A DNA stretch of 64,000 bases from Acidaminococcus fermentans (GTDB lineage Bacteria; Bacillota; Negativicutes; Acidaminococcales; Acidaminococcaceae), in contig NZ_VULN01000003.1 of assembly GCF_009696675.1 (NCBI RefSeq), positions 124,001 to 188,000 on the forward strand, in the 5' to 3' direction. The notes beneath the pieces are model-generated. The model was given only the letters and a program-made list of their open reading frames with translations, had not been told where the DNA came from and did no database searches. Both the position numbers and the translations under genes were made by a program. Shown here piece by piece: positions 7,091 to 60,438 of the stretch; within the stretch, counting starts at the first letter, position 1, and each line of letters opens with the position of its first letter.

Positions 7091-7096
7091 AAAAAA

Positions 7097-7139
7097 GGGG
7101 CTGTGAAAAAATGAAAGATCATTTTTTCACAGCCCCTTT
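7097..7139 (+). terminator. Strong terminator after lepB
   Basis: A 17-bp perfect inverted repeat (GGGGCTGTGAAAAAATG / CATTTTTTCACAGCCCC, 6-base loop), ending at 7136 and followed by TTTA. Confidence 0.88.
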
Positions 7140-23316: not shown

Positions 23317-23345
23317 TTTTCCGTTCCGGTTCATGGAAACCTCAA

Positions 23346-23386
23346 ACGAGGGTATTGCACATTCTGTGCAATACCCTCGTTTTTTG
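23346..23386 (+). terminator. Terminator of rplM-rpsI
   Basis: A 16-bp perfect inverted repeat (ACGAGGGTATTGCACA / TGTGCAATACCCTCGT, 3-base loop) is followed by six T residues. Confidence 0.95.
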
Positions 23387-23440: not shown

Positions 23441-23443
23441 CAT

Positions 23444-23476
23444 AAAAAACAGGGGCCTGGATGGCCCCTGTTTTTT
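23444..23476. terminator. Bidirectional-looking terminator downstream of thiC
   Basis: AAAAAACAGGGGCC / GGCCCCTGTTTTTT is a perfect 14-bp inverted repeat with a 5-base loop. It overlaps the thiC stop at 23475 and can end transcription from either side. Confidence 0.9.
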
Positions 23477-24782
23477 ATTTGCTCTTCTTCGCCTTGACTT
23501 CGTCCATGTATTCGTTCATGATCTTCACGGCGCAGTAGTCTCCGCACATGGAGCAGTATTCTTCGCTGCTCTTGTTCTTGGCAGACCGGATGGCTCTGGC
23601 TTTTTCCGGATCGATGGCCAGGCTCAGCTGTTTGTCCCAATCCAGGACTTTCCGGGCTTTGGCCATGGCCAGATCCTGGGCTACCGCAGAGGGCAGGCCT
23701 TTGGCCACGTCGGCGGCATGGCCGGCGATCCGGGCGGCTACCACCCCTTCCCGGACGTCATTGATGTCCGGCAGGCCCAGGTGTTCGGCCGGAGTCACAT
23801 AGCACAGGAAGTTGGCGCCGGTAAAGGCGGCCAGGGTACCGCCGATGGCGGAAGTGATGTGGTCGTAGCCGGGAGCGATATCGGTGACCAGGGGCCCCAG
23901 CACATAGAAGGGAGCACCGTGGCAGATCCGTTTCTGGAGCTGCATGTTGGTGGCAATCTGGTTGTAGGGAACATGTCCCGGGCCCTCCACCATCACCTGT
24001 ACCCCTTTGGCCCAGGCACGCTGGGTCAGTTCGCCCAGGTTCAGCAGTTCCTGGATCTGGGTCCGGTCGGTGGCGTCTGCCAGGCAGCCGGGCCGGCAGC
24101 CGTCGCCCAGGCTGATGGTTACATCATATTTGGCACAGATGTCCAGGATTTCGTCGTAGAATTCGTAGAAGGGATTTTCCTTCCCGTTGTGGAGCATCCA
24201 GCCGGACAGGAAAGAACCGCCCCGGCTGACAATGTCCATTTCCCGGCCTTCGTTGATCAGGTTGTGGAGGCACTGGCGGGTGAGGCCACAGTGCATGGTC
24301 ATGAAGTCAGCCCCGTCCTTGGCCTGCTGTTCCACTACGGTGAAAATGTCGTTCTTGTCCATTTCCGTCACTTTGCCATGGGCCTTGATGGCCTGGACCG
24401 TGGCCTGATAAATGGGTACGGTGCCCACCATGGCGGTGGAATGTTCAATGATGGCCTTCCGGGAGGCGTCGATGTTGTTGCCGGTGGACAGATCCATCAC
24501 CGCATCAGCTCCGGCGTCGATGGCTGCTTTCAGTTTGTCCAGTTCCGGAGCGGGATCCGGAAAAGCGGAAGAAGTCCCGATGTTGGCGTTCACCTTGGTG
24601 GAAAGGCCTTCGCCCACACCCCGGGGGACCAGGTTCTTGTGGTTGATGTTGGCGGGGATGCAGATGGTGCCTTTGGCCACTCCGTCCCGGATGAATTCCG
24701 GGGTGACTCCTTCCTGGCGGGCCACTTCCGCCATCTGGTCAGTGATTTTACCCTGCAGTGCAGCTTGTCTTTGGGTCAGCAT
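23475..24782 (-). CDS. thiC: Phosphomethylpyrimidine synthase ThiC
   Basis: ThiC is the radical-SAM enzyme that rearranges aminoimidazole ribotide to HMP-P. The 435-residue product is the short class without the long N-terminal domain. Its C-terminal cluster motif is CSMCGDYC at about 410-417 (CX2CX3C spacing as read here). Landmarks include GDGCRPGCLADATD and the VMVEGPGHVPYNQI loop. AGGAGGATT precedes the ATG at 24782. A TPP riboswitch with terminator lies immediately upstream. It would feed HMP-P to ThiD (139) and ThiE (961). Confidence 0.97.
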   Translation of the reverse strand: MLTQRQAALQGKITDQMAEVARQEGVTPEFIRDGVAKGTICIPANINHKNLVPRGVGEGLSTKVNANIGTSSAFPDPAPELDKLKAAIDAGADAVMDLSTGNNIDASRKAIIEHSTAMVGTVPIYQATVQAIKAHGKVTEMDKNDIFTVVEQQAKDGADFMTMHCGLTRQCLHNLINEGREMDIVSRGGSFLSGWMLHNGKENPFYEFYDEILDICAKYDVTISLGDGCRPGCLADATDRTQIQELLNLGELTQRAWAKGVQVMVEGPGHVPYNQIATNMQLQKRICHGAPFYVLGPLVTDIAPGYDHITSAIGGTLAAFTGANFLCYVTPAEHLGLPDINDVREGVVAARIAGHAADVAKGLPSAVAQDLAMAKARKVLDWDKQLSLAIDPEKARAIRSAKNKSSEEYCSMCGDYCAVKIMNEYMDEVKAKKSK

Positions 24783-45153: not shown

Positions 45154-45171
45154 GTCTCGATTCTTCAAAAT

Positions 45172-45204
45172 CTCCTGTCACGAAAGTGACAGGAGATTTT
45201 TTTT
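45172..45204 (+). terminator. Terminator of nifJ
   Basis: CTCCTGTCAC / GTGACAGGAG with a GAAA tetraloop, then A and eight T residues. Confidence 0.95.
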
Positions 45205-55821: not shown

Positions 55822-56787
55822 ATGGAAATTACGGCAACAATAGAAACCCAAAAAATTGAATTTGGCAGTCCGGATGTACTGGCAGGAAAAGAATCAGTGC
55901 ATATTGGGTACGGAACAGATGAGAATTTTGTGATGCCTATGGGCGTTTCCATGATTTCTGTTTTGGAAAACAATAAGGAACTGCCGATTGTTTTTCATAT
56001 CCTGACGGAAAATATCAGCGAGAAGAGTATTAACCAACTGAAAACCATAGCATCTAGATATCCAAATTGTGGAGTACAAGTTCATTTTACAGATTTGAGC
56101 ATTATTGATGGTCTGCCTATGTTTGCCCTTGGCAAAGCAACCTATATCCGGGTGTTTTTGGGGCAGATTTTGGATCCTGCAGTGGAGAAAATTCTCTATT
56201 TGGATGGAGATATCGTTTGCCTTCAGTCAATTCAGAATCTGATTCATAGAGATTTTTCTGGGAAAACGGTAATGGTGGTAGAAGATGTACCAGCAACAGC
56301 CAGAAAGCAGGAAAAAAAGTTTCAGCTGCAGCAGTATTTTAATGCTGGAATGATTTTTATGAACATGGTTCAATGGCGGCAGGAAAAAATCTCCGAGAAA
56401 TTTCTTGATGTATGTTTTGAGTATAAAGAGAGATTGAATTATTTAGATCAGGATGCATTGAATATAGTGTTGGAAAAGAAGAAACTGATGGTAGGAAGGG
56501 AATATAATTTTATTCCACTTTCTGCCGAGGAAACTGAAGTCCCAGATAACGCGGTATTTCTTCATTATGCAGGGACGAAGCCGTGGTATTGCTGGTTGGA
56601 TTTTCCCCTGAAAAGATATTTTATAAAATATTATAAGATGTCTCCCTGGAAAGATGAATCGCTGCAGCAACCCCGAAATTACCGGGAAATGCATTATATG
56701 TCCCGTGCCCGATGGAGACAGGGAAAATATTTTGATAGTGTGTACTGGTTTATCCAATATATTTCTACTAAAATCAAGAAAAAATAA
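55822..56787 (+). CDS. Family 8 glycosyltransferase with C-terminal GT8C segment
   Basis: The 321-residue protein has IGYGTDENFVMPMGVSMISVLENN, the DXD motif YLDGDIV near 128 and FNAGMIFMNMVQW. HYAGTKPW is followed by a C-terminal extension (about 260-321) typical of LPS GT8 enzymes. AT-rich, matching the 53935 gene. AGAAGGAG lies about 20 bases upstream and a weaker CGGGAGA nearer. Confidence 0.9.
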   Translation: MEITATIETQKIEFGSPDVLAGKESVHIGYGTDENFVMPMGVSMISVLENNKELPIVFHILTENISEKSINQLKTIASRYPNCGVQVHFTDLSIIDGLPMFALGKATYIRVFLGQILDPAVEKILYLDGDIVCLQSIQNLIHRDFSGKTVMVVEDVPATARKQEKKFQLQQYFNAGMIFMNMVQWRQEKISEKFLDVCFEYKERLNYLDQDALNIVLEKKKLMVGREYNFIPLSAEETEVPDNAVFLHYAGTKPWYCWLDFPLKRYFIKYYKMSPWKDESLQQPRNYREMHYMSRARWRQGKYFDSVYWFIQYISTKIKKK

Positions 56788-56819
56788 TTTGTTGAATGTT
56801 GGTAAAAGGGGAGTAGAAG

Positions 56820-57221
56820 ATGGCATCTAAAAATCTCTTACAGATACGGATGGAGACAGCCAAAAAAATCCTCACCAAACTCCACGAACTGGCCGTAAAA
56901 CCGGATCTGTCCGAGGTGGAACGGGATGCCCTGATCCAGCGGTTCGAATTTTCTTTTGAACTGCTTTGGAAATGCGCCAAAGAATACCTTTATGTGGAAG
57001 AAGGGATTGATGCGGCGTCTCCTAAAAAGGTCATCCGGTGCTGCCGGGAACTGGGGCTGCTGGATGAGGGGCAGACCCAGGAAGCCCTGCAGATGGCAGA
57101 TGACCGGAATCTGACCTCCCATACCTATGATGAAACTTTTGCCCAAGCGGTGGTGGAACGGATCCGCCAGTATGATCCGCTGCTCCAGTCCTGGCTGGAT
57201 AAAATAGGCGATGCCAGGTAG
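56820..57221 (+). CDS. HI0074-type nucleotidyltransferase substrate-binding protein (orphan HepT-like)
   Basis: The 133-residue four-helix protein resembles the HI0074/HEPN-related subunits that pair with a minimal nucleotidyltransferase. It contains Arg96-X4-His101-X-Tyr103 (DDRNLTSHTYDE), the RX4HXY pattern of HepT toxins. No nucleotidyltransferase gene lies beside it: upstream is a glycosyltransferase and downstream a regulator. GGGGAGTAGAAG precedes ATG 56820. It is GC-rich, unlike the preceding gene. Confidence 0.82.
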   Translation: MASKNLLQIRMETAKKILTKLHELAVKPDLSEVERDALIQRFEFSFELLWKCAKEYLYVEEGIDAASPKKVIRCCRELGLLDEGQTQEALQMADDRNLTSHTYDETFAQAVVERIRQYDPLLQSWLDKIGDAR

Positions 57222-57235
57222 AAAAAGAAGCGTAT

Positions 57236-57320
57236 AAATCGGAACCGTAGGGGCGGCAGACCCGGCCGCCCGCAGATACATCGTTTGTTCATGTGTTCTG
57301 CGGGCCGCCGGCTGTACAGT
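57236..57320. repeat. GC-rich intergenic inverted repeat (ACCGTAGGGGCGGC family)
   Basis: ACCGTAGGGGCGGC…GGCCGCCCGCAGA and TCTGCGGGCCGCC form overlapping complementary blocks, notably GGCCGCCCGCAGA (57267-57279) against TCTGCGGGCCGCC (near 57298). Related to the repeats at 47650. Confidence 0.55.
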
Positions 57321-57342
57321 TCCTGCGGTTTTTTTCGTTGCA

Positions 57343-57413
57343 AACGCAAATGCAACGCAAAATTTACGTTGCATTTGCGTTGCATTTTTTATTATAATTG
57401 ATGCAACGCAAAT
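57343..57413. promoter_or_regulatory. Operator-like 15-bp dyad plus third half-site around the 57442 promoter
   Basis: AACGCAAATGCAACG (57343-57357) and CGTTGCATTTGCGTT (57367-57381) are a perfect 15-bp inverted repeat with a 9-base spacer. ATGCAACGCAAAT recurs at 57401-57413. The promoter (TTGCAT 57369-57374, 18 bases, TATAAT 57393-57398) is embedded between them. Confidence 0.75.
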
Positions 57414-57441
57414 CACAGAACTGTGAAAGGGGGCGAAGTTT

Positions 57442-58392
57442 TTGGGAAGAAAAAGCAATACGCTGGACCGCCTGGCTTTGAACCGGTTGATCCTGGAAGG
57501 GTCCCACCGGTATTTTGAAGATTTGCCAGCAGAGGATTCTTCTTTAACCTTTTCCGTCCTGTCCCGGGAAATGGAAAAACAACTGGGGGTTTCTCAGGTG
57601 GATACGGATGTATTGAAAACATTGGGATTTTATACGGCAGGAGGCAAGTTCTCCCATGTGGCGGAACTTTTTTCTGATCAGAATACCTTTCCGGGGGTGG
57701 ATATGATGGTCTTTGGCCGGTCCATCAACGAAATCCGGGAACGGATCAAAATCCATGGATGTTCCGTATTGTCGCTGTTCCACCAGGCTGTGGAACGGAT
57801 TGCCCGGGAATACCAGGTGGAGAAAATCGATGGAGTGGAACGGCGGATGGTGGAGAAGATTCCCGGCCAGGCCATCAGAGAAGCCATGGCCAACGCTCTG
57901 GTACATCGTACCTGGGATATTCCCACTGCTATACGGGTGGCCATGTATCCGGACAAGGTGGAAATTACCTCGCCGGGAGGACTGCCGGCAGGCATCAGCC
58001 AGGAAGAATATCTCCATCATCAGATTTCCATTCTGCGGAATCCCAAACTGGCCAATGTGTTCTATCGGCTGGGGTATATTGAAGCCTTTGGAACGGGCAT
58101 CCAGCGGATCCTTTATGCCTACCGCCAAAGCCGGGTCAAACCGGATTTTCAGGTAACGGATCATATTATTCAGGTGATCCTGCCTCTGGTGGATGCCATG
58201 CCGCCCTTGGACCAGGAGGAGCAAAGAATCTGTGCCGTATTTCCGGAAAATGGCCTGCTGAGCCGGCAGGAAATCGAACAGGCCACCGGTTTTGAAAAGA
58301 CCAAAGTCATCCGTCTGTTGAACCGGCTGGTGGGGAAAAAGGCCGTGCTGAAAGTGGGCAAAGGCCGGGGTACCCGGTACCAGCGGCAGTAA
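57442..58392 (+). CDS. ATP-binding transcriptional-regulator-like protein (HATPase_c_4 type)
   Basis: The 316-residue protein has a central GHKL-type ATP-binding segment (EAMANALVHRTW near 147-158, then YPDKVEITSPGGLPAG and AFGTGIQRI). A C-terminal winged helix (about 258-316: LLSRQEIEQATGFEKTKVIRLL) completes it. Related proteins are annotated as predicted transcriptional regulators and sometimes carry an N-terminal AlbA_2 domain, which is not obvious here. GAAAGGGGG precedes TTG 57442. It probably binds the dyad upstream. Confidence 0.8.
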   Translation: MGRKSNTLDRLALNRLILEGSHRYFEDLPAEDSSLTFSVLSREMEKQLGVSQVDTDVLKTLGFYTAGGKFSHVAELFSDQNTFPGVDMMVFGRSINEIRERIKIHGCSVLSLFHQAVERIAREYQVEKIDGVERRMVEKIPGQAIREAMANALVHRTWDIPTAIRVAMYPDKVEITSPGGLPAGISQEEYLHHQISILRNPKLANVFYRLGYIEAFGTGIQRILYAYRQSRVKPDFQVTDHIIQVILPLVDAMPPLDQEEQRICAVFPENGLLSRQEIEQATGFEKTKVIRLLNRLVGKKAVLKVGKGRGTRYQRQ

Positions 58393-58410
58393 TCCAAAAG
58401 GAGGGAAATT

Positions 58411-60438
58411 TTGTTCAGTCTATTCTACGCATCGCTGCAGCAGGATGGAAAGCTGTTTTTGTTCTTTCCCATTCTGTGTGCTGTTTTTCGTCTGATTTTC
58501 ATTGCTGTGTACAATCCGTACCGGAGCCTGAAAGGCAAGGGGAAGGTAATCTGGCACTGTTTCCGGTACGGGTTCTGGTGGGGGATGGATTTCAACGCCT
58601 ATGTGTTCCTGATTCCCCTGGTGGTACTGTCCATTCCCGGGGCCTTTTTTACCGACTGGTACCGGAAAGGAGACCTGCTGCGGATGGCGGGAGGGCTTAC
58701 CTACAGCCTGGTACTGTACCTGGCCTTTGCCGGGAAGATGCTGTTCTACAAGCATTTCCATGATATCTTCAACCAGACCATGAAGCTGGGGGCCAAAGCG
58801 GAAAAGCACAACCTGGTGGATATTTTCTTCCATCAGGACCACGGGGTCTGGATCCTCTTGGGCATCCTGCCCTATCTGGGGGTGTGCGACTTCTGCATCC
58901 ACAAGCTGCTCCAGCTGCCCAGCTTCCAGTATCTGATCTTTTTCAGCCCGGTGCTCCAGTACGCCTACAACACGGTGATCGTCCTGGGGGCTGTGGCGGC
59001 TTTTTACTGGTTCCGGTACGGGGGGACTTTTTGGCATGACGACAAGCCGGAATGGGATACCATCCCCAGTGTGGTAAAAAAGGACATTTTCTTTGCCAAG
59101 GCCACGGTGGACGATCTGGTGGCCCTGGAACAGGTGATGAAGCACAAACTGAATCCGGCCTATGAGCACACCGATGCCCAGGACCTGAAAGCCATCCAGC
59201 CCTTCCTTACGGAAAAGGTCCCGGCGGACAAGCTGCCCAACCCGGCCTATGGGTTCAAAAGGACGGCCAAAGGGGCCCGGATCACCAAACCCACCCATAT
59301 TTTCCTTTTTGTGGGAGAAACCTATCTCCAGCAGTTCTTTGATCCCCAGTTCGCCTGTCTGAACCTGGTGGAAGGGGGCCGGCAGCTGATGGAGGATCCT
59401 CATACGGCGTCCCTGACCAGTGCTCTTTCTGCCGGTATCATCTCCCGGCCTTCCATTGTAAGCCTGATGAGCGGAATCTTCGATGCAGGGCTGGAACTGA
59501 ACGAAAAAGAAAGCTTCTGGCGCAACAACCTGCCCACGGCCCTGCCCCGGCAGCTGAAAAAACTGGGGTATCATTCCACCTACTGGTACGGTGGGAATGT
59601 AACCTATGGGAACTTCAACCAGTTTGCTCCCGCCTGCGGCTTCGACCAGGTGATGACCGCCACGGATTTCTGTGGTAAAGACGCTCCCAAGACCTGGGTG
59701 GGGGTCTATGACAATGTGTTCCTGGAAAAGGCGGCGGAACTGATCCTCCAGCAGGAAGAGGCCAACGGGCCCTACCAGTTCCATTTCCTGTACACCACCA
59801 GCTACCACGGCCCCTTCAAGATTCCCCTGAAGGAGTACGGGTATGACCCGGAAAAGGTGATGCCTGAGGCGCCCCGGGACATCCGGCGGAACAAGGAAAT
59901 CCAGAAAAACCTGGGGACCTTCTGGTTCTCGGACCAGGCCCTGGGGAAATTCATCCGGACCATGCGGAAAGCCTATCCGGACTGTCTGTTCATCCTTACC
60001 GGGGACCATTCCATCGATATGAGCCCGGTGCTGGGGAAAACCTCTCTGATGGGACGGGACTGCAACCTGCGGGAACGGCACAGCCCGGTGCTGCTGGTGA
60101 ACCACCGGGAGCTGAATCCCCACAGCCTGGCCGGGAATACCATCGGGAGCCACATGAACATTGCCCCCACCATTTTCGAACTGATCGCCCCCAAGGGGTT
60201 CACCTATTATTCCTTGTATCCTTCTCTGCTGGAACCCATCGATCATGTGGTATCGCCTTACCACTGGCTGCGGAAAGACGCCTACGGCAGCTACAGCCAG
60301 GACTTCTATCAGCCCCTGGGGCCCCAGTACGGTCCCGAAGACCTCCAGGAAGGCCCCAAACCTTACACGGAAGAAAGGGAAGCCTGGATGGACCTCACCG
60401 GTTATCTGGTCCGGCATCCGGAGGTGCTGGAAAGATAA
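58411..60438 (+). CDS. LTA synthase family / sulfatase-fold membrane protein
   Basis: The 675-residue protein has several membrane segments in residues about 1-205 and an extracytoplasmic sulfatase-fold domain. The nucleophile motif is FVGETYLQQFFD with Thr304, later HFLYTTSYHGPF and TGDHSIDMSP. In a lipopolysaccharide-bearing cell it more likely adds a phospho-substituent to a surface glycan than makes lipoteichoic acid. AGGAGGGAA precedes TTG 58411. GC-rich; 18 bases after the regulator gene. Confidence 0.88.
   Translation: MFSLFYASLQQDGKLFLFFPILCAVFRLIFIAVYNPYRSLKGKGKVIWHCFRYGFWWGMDFNAYVFLIPLVVLSIPGAFFTDWYRKGDLLRMAGGLTYSLVLYLAFAGKMLFYKHFHDIFNQTMKLGAKAEKHNLVDIFFHQDHGVWILLGILPYLGVCDFCIHKLLQLPSFQYLIFFSPVLQYAYNTVIVLGAVAAFYWFRYGGTFWHDDKPEWDTIPSVVKKDIFFAKATVDDLVALEQVMKHKLNPAYEHTDAQDLKAIQPFLTEKVPADKLPNPAYGFKRTAKGARITKPTHIFLFVGETYLQQFFDPQFACLNLVEGGRQLMEDPHTASLTSALSAGIISRPSIVSLMSGIFDAGLELNEKESFWRNNLPTALPRQLKKLGYHSTYWYGGNVTYGNFNQFAPACGFDQVMTATDFCGKDAPKTWVGVYDNVFLEKAAELILQQEEANGPYQFHFLYTTSYHGPFKIPLKEYGYDPEKVMPEAPRDIRRNKEIQKNLGTFWFSDQALGKFIRTMRKAYPDCLFILTGDHSIDMSPVLGKTSLMGRDCNLRERHSPVLLVNHRELNPHSLAGNTIGSHMNIAPTIFELIAPKGFTYYSLYPSLLEPIDHVVSPYHWLRKDAYGSYSQDFYQPLGPQYGPEDLQEGPKPYTEEREAWMDLTGYLVRHPEVLER

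Follow-up and report, generated by a model that had tools for sequence, protein, structure and literature searches.

A putative autoregulatory operator at the promoter of a Schlafen gene that has lost its RNase domain in Acidaminococcus fermentans

The 64-kb stretch of Acidaminococcus fermentans DNA analysed here (the window) contains a large inverted repeat between two genes read on the plus strand. Upstream lies an orphan HI0074/HepT-like gene (56820-57221). Downstream lies a gene of 316 codons with a TTG start (57442-58392), followed after 18 nt by a plus-strand gene for a sulfatase-fold membrane protein (58411-60438; Pfam Sulfatase, E = 3e-18). A preliminary description of this DNA had recognized both neighbours and the 18-nt gap; Pfam bears out the two assignments and the gap is correct. 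Between hepT and the repeat, on the same strand, RNA folding reveals a GC-rich hairpin followed by a T run (57243-57340), likely the hepT terminator. The segment 57240-57345 folds to -57.8 kcal/mol (z -6.0 against shuffles), and a simple terminator scan did not list the hairpin. Rfam gave no match across 56700-58500.

The main palindrome (57343-57381) is perfect over 15 bp. One arm, AACGCAAATGCAACG, occupies 57343-57357 on the plus strand and its exact reverse complement occupies 57367-57381, as first described. The arms can be extended to 19 nt, 95% complementary with one mismatch, around a 1-nt centre. A third half-site, ATGCAACGCAAAT, had also been noticed just after the -10 element, and it is found at 57401-57413, immediately 3' of TATAAT. 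The full array is larger: five TGCAACG half-sites lie at 57336-57342 (minus strand), 57351-57357 (plus), 57367-57373 (minus), 57378-57384 (minus, 11 bp from the third) and 57402-57408 (plus, just 3' of the -10), reaching from the -35 to slightly beyond the -10.

How unusual is such a structure? Perfect inverted repeats with arms of at least 12 and gaps of at most 30 number 12 in the window, and three of these are overlapping readings of the dyad. When the whole window was shuffled eight times with its dinucleotide composition kept, the numbers of repeats with arms of at least 12 were 0, 0, 0, 0, 0, 0, 0 and 1, and arms of at least 15 never appeared. The dyad is therefore beyond chance for random sequence. 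Length alone does not set it apart among real sequences, since four further places in the window (7094-7139, 23344-23382, 23442-23478 and 45167-45200) have perfect inverted repeats with arms of 15-21. We also ran the genome search for the half-site that the preliminary description had proposed. Across the whole 2.35-Mb genome, the 15-mer has no copy outside the dyad element. The 13-mer half-site occurs six times with at most one mismatch, four of them in the operator element. The two outside sites, which by eye seem unrelated, are C1:273411, inside an open frame, and C30:6090, located between open frames near repeat-like DNA; the idea of a genome-wide regulon was dropped.

The half-site array spans a weak -35, a perfect -10 and the likely transcription start. 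The -10 is the consensus TATAAT (57393-57398, plus strand). The candidate -35, TTGCAT (57369-57374, plus strand), is read from the sequence as a weak match and stands 18 nt upstream of the -10. The dyad had been placed over the -35 region; this holds in that TTGCAT falls inside the operator, but the hexamer is a poor -35 and a consensus promoter scan reported no site at the promoter of the 57442 gene. A ribosome-binding site, AAAGGGGG, was found by eye at 57426-57433 on the plus strand.

What protein does this promoter serve? An ATPase-like domain and a winged helix had been proposed. The first is confirmed by Pfam as HATPase_c_4 (aa 163-247; 57928-58182, plus strand; E = 5.5e-20). For the second, the Pfam HTH matches of the window protein are below cut-off, and the support comes from the confident C-terminal segment of an AlphaFold2 model of its A. 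massiliensis relative. That model is poor overall (mean pLDDT 45) and its C-terminal 60 residues alone were used; within them, residues 360-417 form a winged helix of the order H-H-H-E-E. Transferred with a 102-residue offset, the model places a predicted recognition helix (local pLDDT 78-88) at aa 286-298 of the window protein (58297-58335, plus strand). Judged by this model, the window protein keeps the C-terminal winged helix.

The preliminary description, which proves partly right as a whole, overlooked what the gene is: a bacterial Schlafen without its RNase domain. The A. massiliensis relative (L003/L005) has 418 residues and is 98% identical to the window protein over their common part. 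It carries SLFN_AlbA_2 at 4-108 (E = 1.8e-18), HATPase_c_4 at 265-349 (E = 3.5e-20) and then the winged helix. Full-length relatives are bacterial Schlafens, composed of an SLFN_AlbA_2 RNase domain, an HATPase domain and a winged helix. Residues E4, E9 and K11 (ExxxxExK) are invariant in 20 of 20 aligned full-length proteins, and the available part of one report describes this motif as essential for the RNase activity of SLFN14 (PMC12215978). The Pfam scan found no SLFN_AlbA_2 in the window protein, and the ExxxxExK motif is absent. The remaining N-terminal tip reads GRKSNTLDRL, in which both catalytic Glu positions have changed, to K and D, as we would expect once these residues no longer matter.

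The RNase domain is missing because of an in-frame deletion. Aligned with the full-length genes of A. massiliensis and of a further Acidaminococcus genome, G001, which also has the operator, the window gene (genome G000) follows both for about 26 nt from the start codon (18/26 identical) and then jumps by exactly 306 nt, in a deletion known from one assembly. The junction (57464-57467, plus strand) shows TGGA microhomology. Operator, ribosome-binding site, start region, HATPase domain and winged helix are all kept beside it. Among the matches listed in a search of 380 genomes of the class Negativicutes, none is a full-length Schlafen copy in the window genome. PADLOC returned partial pAgo-associated matches alone for the regulator, over the HATPase region, and the one solved structure to match it was that of an uncharacterised protein (3LMM, residues 154-330).

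The Schlafen family itself is already known. Bacterial members have been described with BREX loci; they join an SLFN RNase to a minimal histidine kinase and a wHTH (PMC12839542, citing Taboada et al. 2025; available part). Their domain order is that of the full-length relatives here, whereas the window protein lacks the RNase domain. The available part of that article describes no operator or autoregulation for bacterial Schlafens. The literature searched, as far as its texts were available and with preprints and most subscription journals left aside, yielded no description of Schlafen operators or of RNase-less forms. A family that we take to be COG2865, 'predicted transcriptional regulator with HTH and Schlafen-like domain', likewise joins HATPase_c_4 to a C-terminal winged helix in a predicted regulator; what differs here is that comparative evidence attaches a concrete operator.

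Is the operator conserved with the gene? The operator core is identical to that of the window at 49 of 49 positions in A. massiliensis and 47 of 49 in G001. The 12-bp block holding the fifth half-site (12/12) and the -10 (6/6) are identical in all three genomes. The spacer between core and -10 matches the window at 2 of 8 positions in A. massiliensis and 5 of 8 in G001, and the leader at 15 of 29 in each. The class search provided 34 upstream regions for scoring, the window gene included; G103s was left out, as 79 bp precede the gene. The palindrome was unmatched by any of 40 shuffles in 25 of the 34. No palindrome beyond the shuffles was found in the other nine (G222a, G237a, G008, G215, G355, G119, G353, G355s and G267n), four of which (G237a, G222a, G355 and G215) have half-sites visible by eye. 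Most relatives' palindromes lie, by eye, directly 5' of a TATAAT-like element; the exceptions are G262, G285 and G038n, whose best palindrome is 90-150 bp upstream of the start, away from the -35.

Adding five relatives from other classes (phylum search, 398 genomes) gave an enlarged set. A palindrome score of at least 11 was reached by 26 of the 39 upstream regions in this set, that of the window gene among them, and by 4 of 62 controls (Mann-Whitney p = 2e-11), the controls being regions upstream of open frames of at least 150 aa with an ATG and a preceding purine-rich stretch, not curated genes. Most of the relatives' proteins showing this enrichment are 43-60% identical. Outside the class the conservation is weak: among the five added relatives a strong palindrome was found in one (G695), AACG/CGTT half-sites were visible by eye in three (G563, G637 and G410), and nothing clear was seen by eye upstream in G587. 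A significant palindrome still precedes the RNase-less genes of G000, G102 and G105; retention of the operator thus does not depend on the RNase domain.

The operator sequence follows the protein subfamily. Types assigned by eye among the relatives include TGCAACG, CAAACG/CAGACG, GGAACG, CAATTG and CAATCG. In a sister subfamily of about 30% identity, the same promoter place is taken by TTAGAA-type repeats, often spaced 9-12 bp apart (L125-L143; 19 of 20 regions usable, L144 having been dropped when no start motif was found). At least one such element occurs in 18 of the 19 sister promoters and at least two in 13. In the 43 upstream regions compared for the window gene and its relatives, such an element is never seen more than once. 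The motif AACG/CGTT, in turn, is found at most once in every one of the 19 sister promoters and at least twice in 32 of the 43. The 43 include the upstream region of a phage-labelled scaffold, L124, whose protein has an early stop and was used nowhere.

Does the operator type also follow the recognition helix? Of 17 TGCAACG-type proteins, 15 have Arg at one position of the predicted helix, as against none of eight CAAACG/CAGACG-type proteins (Fisher p = 4e-5, ancestry ignored). Three proteins do not obey this rule: G358 and G355 combine a TGCAACG operator with Glu, and G378 combines GGAACG with Arg. In a tree from which the winged helix was left out, the association has one independent pair on supported branches and four on all branches. 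With so few pairs, the association is suggestive, not significant once ancestry is counted. CAATCGT operators are paired with the helix KTTQLLK in G035, in G695 from another class and on a viral-labelled contig, L121; G035 and G695 are sisters in the tree, so their common operator represents one origin. The preliminary description had proposed tight autoregulation by the downstream protein, and comparison supports this proposal well: orthologous operators are conserved and their sequences are specific to the subfamily.

Which genes would such an operator control? Both neighbours had been put forward as targets. The sulfatase gene lies about 18 nt 3' of the regulator in the window genome, A. 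massiliensis and G001. In G008 the operator and promoter (L043:1501-1606) stand directly before the sulfatase gene with no regulator gene between, apparently left behind when the whole Schlafen gene was lost. In the remaining five Acidaminococcus genomes the sulfatase gene is present, but a 22-bp operator segment finds no match at up to three mismatches. Outside the genus, among 60 loci around relatives, a sulfatase-family gene adjoins the regulator only in G038, from another genus of the family (G038:C168; L093:1-1700). It is 26% identical and follows the regulator's C-terminal part by about 100 nt, one hint of an older association. Because neighbours differ between genera, the common target would be the regulator's own promoter. 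This distribution makes control of the sulfatase gene by read-through from the operator promoter likely in the window genome, not in general. As a target, then, the sulfatase is plausible in the part of the genus where three genomes join regulator to sulfatase and one joins operator to sulfatase, but not for the five without an operator match. The claim for hepT did not hold up. The strong hairpin and T run separate it from the operator, it is found beside only two of the 60 loci (those of the window and A. massiliensis), and it appears to lie outside the regulated unit.

We put at roughly 0.78 the probability that 57336-57413 is an operator through which the 57442 protein, by means of its winged helix, represses its own gene. 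The mechanism we infer is as follows. The C-terminal winged helix would bind inverted TGCAACG half-sites, with the HATPase domain probably determining assembly of the protein into a dimer or a larger oligomer, and the bound protein would block RNA polymerase at its own promoter. For the ancestral full-length form, the operator would normally hold down production of a costly RNase, with release on a signal that may be the ATP state or a phage-derived trigger. After the 306-nt deletion, the stripped repressor would still act on its own promoter, and its control would extend to the sulfatase gene through read-through.

Parts of this scheme have precedents. BrxR/CapW-type repressors of defence loci are winged-helix proteins that bind large palindromes at their own promoters, as proposed here. 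They carry WYL domains, whereas the Pfam scan found none in the window protein, and the full-length form here joins effector and repressor in one polypeptide. In toxin-antitoxin operators, a toxic RNase is kept low as its own complex binds inverted repeats. Here, in contrast, there is a single gene with no separate antitoxin known, and the RNase-less form would be the repressor alone. The scheme offers a specific and testable account of how a bacterial Schlafen encoded by one gene may restrain its RNase: a winged helix within the RNase polypeptide itself appears to recognize a matching operator at the promoter of the gene, and operator types differ between subfamilies.

Could the truncated gene instead be decaying, its operator a relic without present function? 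We consider this rather unlikely. The altered catalytic positions in the remaining tip would fit such decay, as would G008, where the regulator gene is gone and the operator remains. On the other hand, the 316-codon frame is open and nearly identical to its A. massiliensis relative. The short genes of G102, G103 and G105 have dN/dS of 0.08-0.11, which places them under protein-level selection now or until recently, although some of it may date from before the RNase domain was deleted; the value for the window gene against A. massiliensis, 0.17, comes from 25 substitutions, too few to judge. Similar RNase losses, moreover, recur in several genomes.

That an unrelated host regulator binds the site, with the downstream protein not its ligand, seems improbable. 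A 15-mer unique to the element, with just two one-mismatch 13-mers elsewhere in the genome, argues against it, as does an operator sequence that shifts with the protein subfamily. Related operators are also found with the gene on a viral-labelled contig and in a genome of another class.

Very little speaks for an operator belonging to a HepT/MntA toxin-antitoxin module: A. massiliensis has a second, 27-nt copy of the operator's 5' part upstream of mntA-hepT, but G001 has the operator and a full-length Schlafen without an adjoining hepT, the single operator copy found in G008 is downstream of hepT, and hepT is all but absent from the Schlafen-relative loci. Scan, fold and conservation likewise fail to support the terminator that the preliminary description named among the outcomes that would refute its reading, and we give scant credence to the dyad's ending the upstream hepT transcript: as RNA it folds to -25.8 kcal/mol (z -4.4) with a T-rich stretch after it, but it has no GC-rich stem with a direct T run, the terminator scan lists nothing there, the stretch from hepT to the dyad already has a far stronger hairpin with a T run, conservation extends to half-sites 1 and 5 and the -10, none of which a terminator would need, and the gene upstream of the operator in G001 is a glycosyltransferase-like frame, not hepT.

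Loss of the RNase domain extends beyond the window gene and into other genera. Among the matches listed in the 380-genome class search, at least 13 places have open frames of 312-335 aa, and the RNase domain is absent in 11 of those 13 (G000, G102, G103, G105, G355, G109, G262, G378, G266, G281 and G223). Two candidates were dropped. G267:C13 runs into a contig end, and its N-terminal part lies at the end of another contig; G278:C51 seems to carry a frameshift, and the domain can still be read farther upstream in a different frame. Operator elements remain before most RNase-less genes. Besides the significant palindromes of G000, G102 and G105, half an operator is present in the 79 bp available for G103, and TTAGAA-type elements precede the short genes of G109 (three), G262 (two), G378 (five), G223 (two), G266 (one) and G281 (one). 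Before the short copy of G355 no clear operator is seen.

The deletion junctions differ between lineages, so the RNase half was lost several times. The main-clade tree requires four changes between long and short forms, one of which may be a regain in G101. G102, G103 and G105 share the same junction (L073, L074 and L077 compared with L060), and the full-length G101 gene is nearest to that of G102 in the common part (dS 0.08). This closeness suggests either that one spot was deleted more than once or that recombination restored the domain. Repeated loss of the RNase half alone supplies natural separation-of-function variants. A bolder and rather doubtful idea is that RNase-less Schlafens are a recurrent, selected class that keeps operator, sensor and DNA-reading domain and acts as trans-acting repressors or as immunity proteins that poison their partners. 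If so, stripped copies would counter full-length Schlafens arriving on mobile DNA, like solitary antitoxins, and the operator type would determine which incoming Schlafen is silenced.

The surroundings of hepT vary among these genomes. The gene is accompanied by mntA in A. massiliensis and G008, stands without it in the window, and does not adjoin the operator in G001. The orphan gene of the window keeps an RX4HXY motif, RNLTSHTY, but lacks the MntA partner that adjoins it in A. massiliensis and G008; the window genome has a single mntA match, partial and at 50%, at G000:C34:82183. The second operator segment of A. massiliensis (L003:2670-2696) is identical over its 27 nt to the operator's 5' end, and is possibly a duplication from insertion of an mntA-hepT cassette between terminator and operator.
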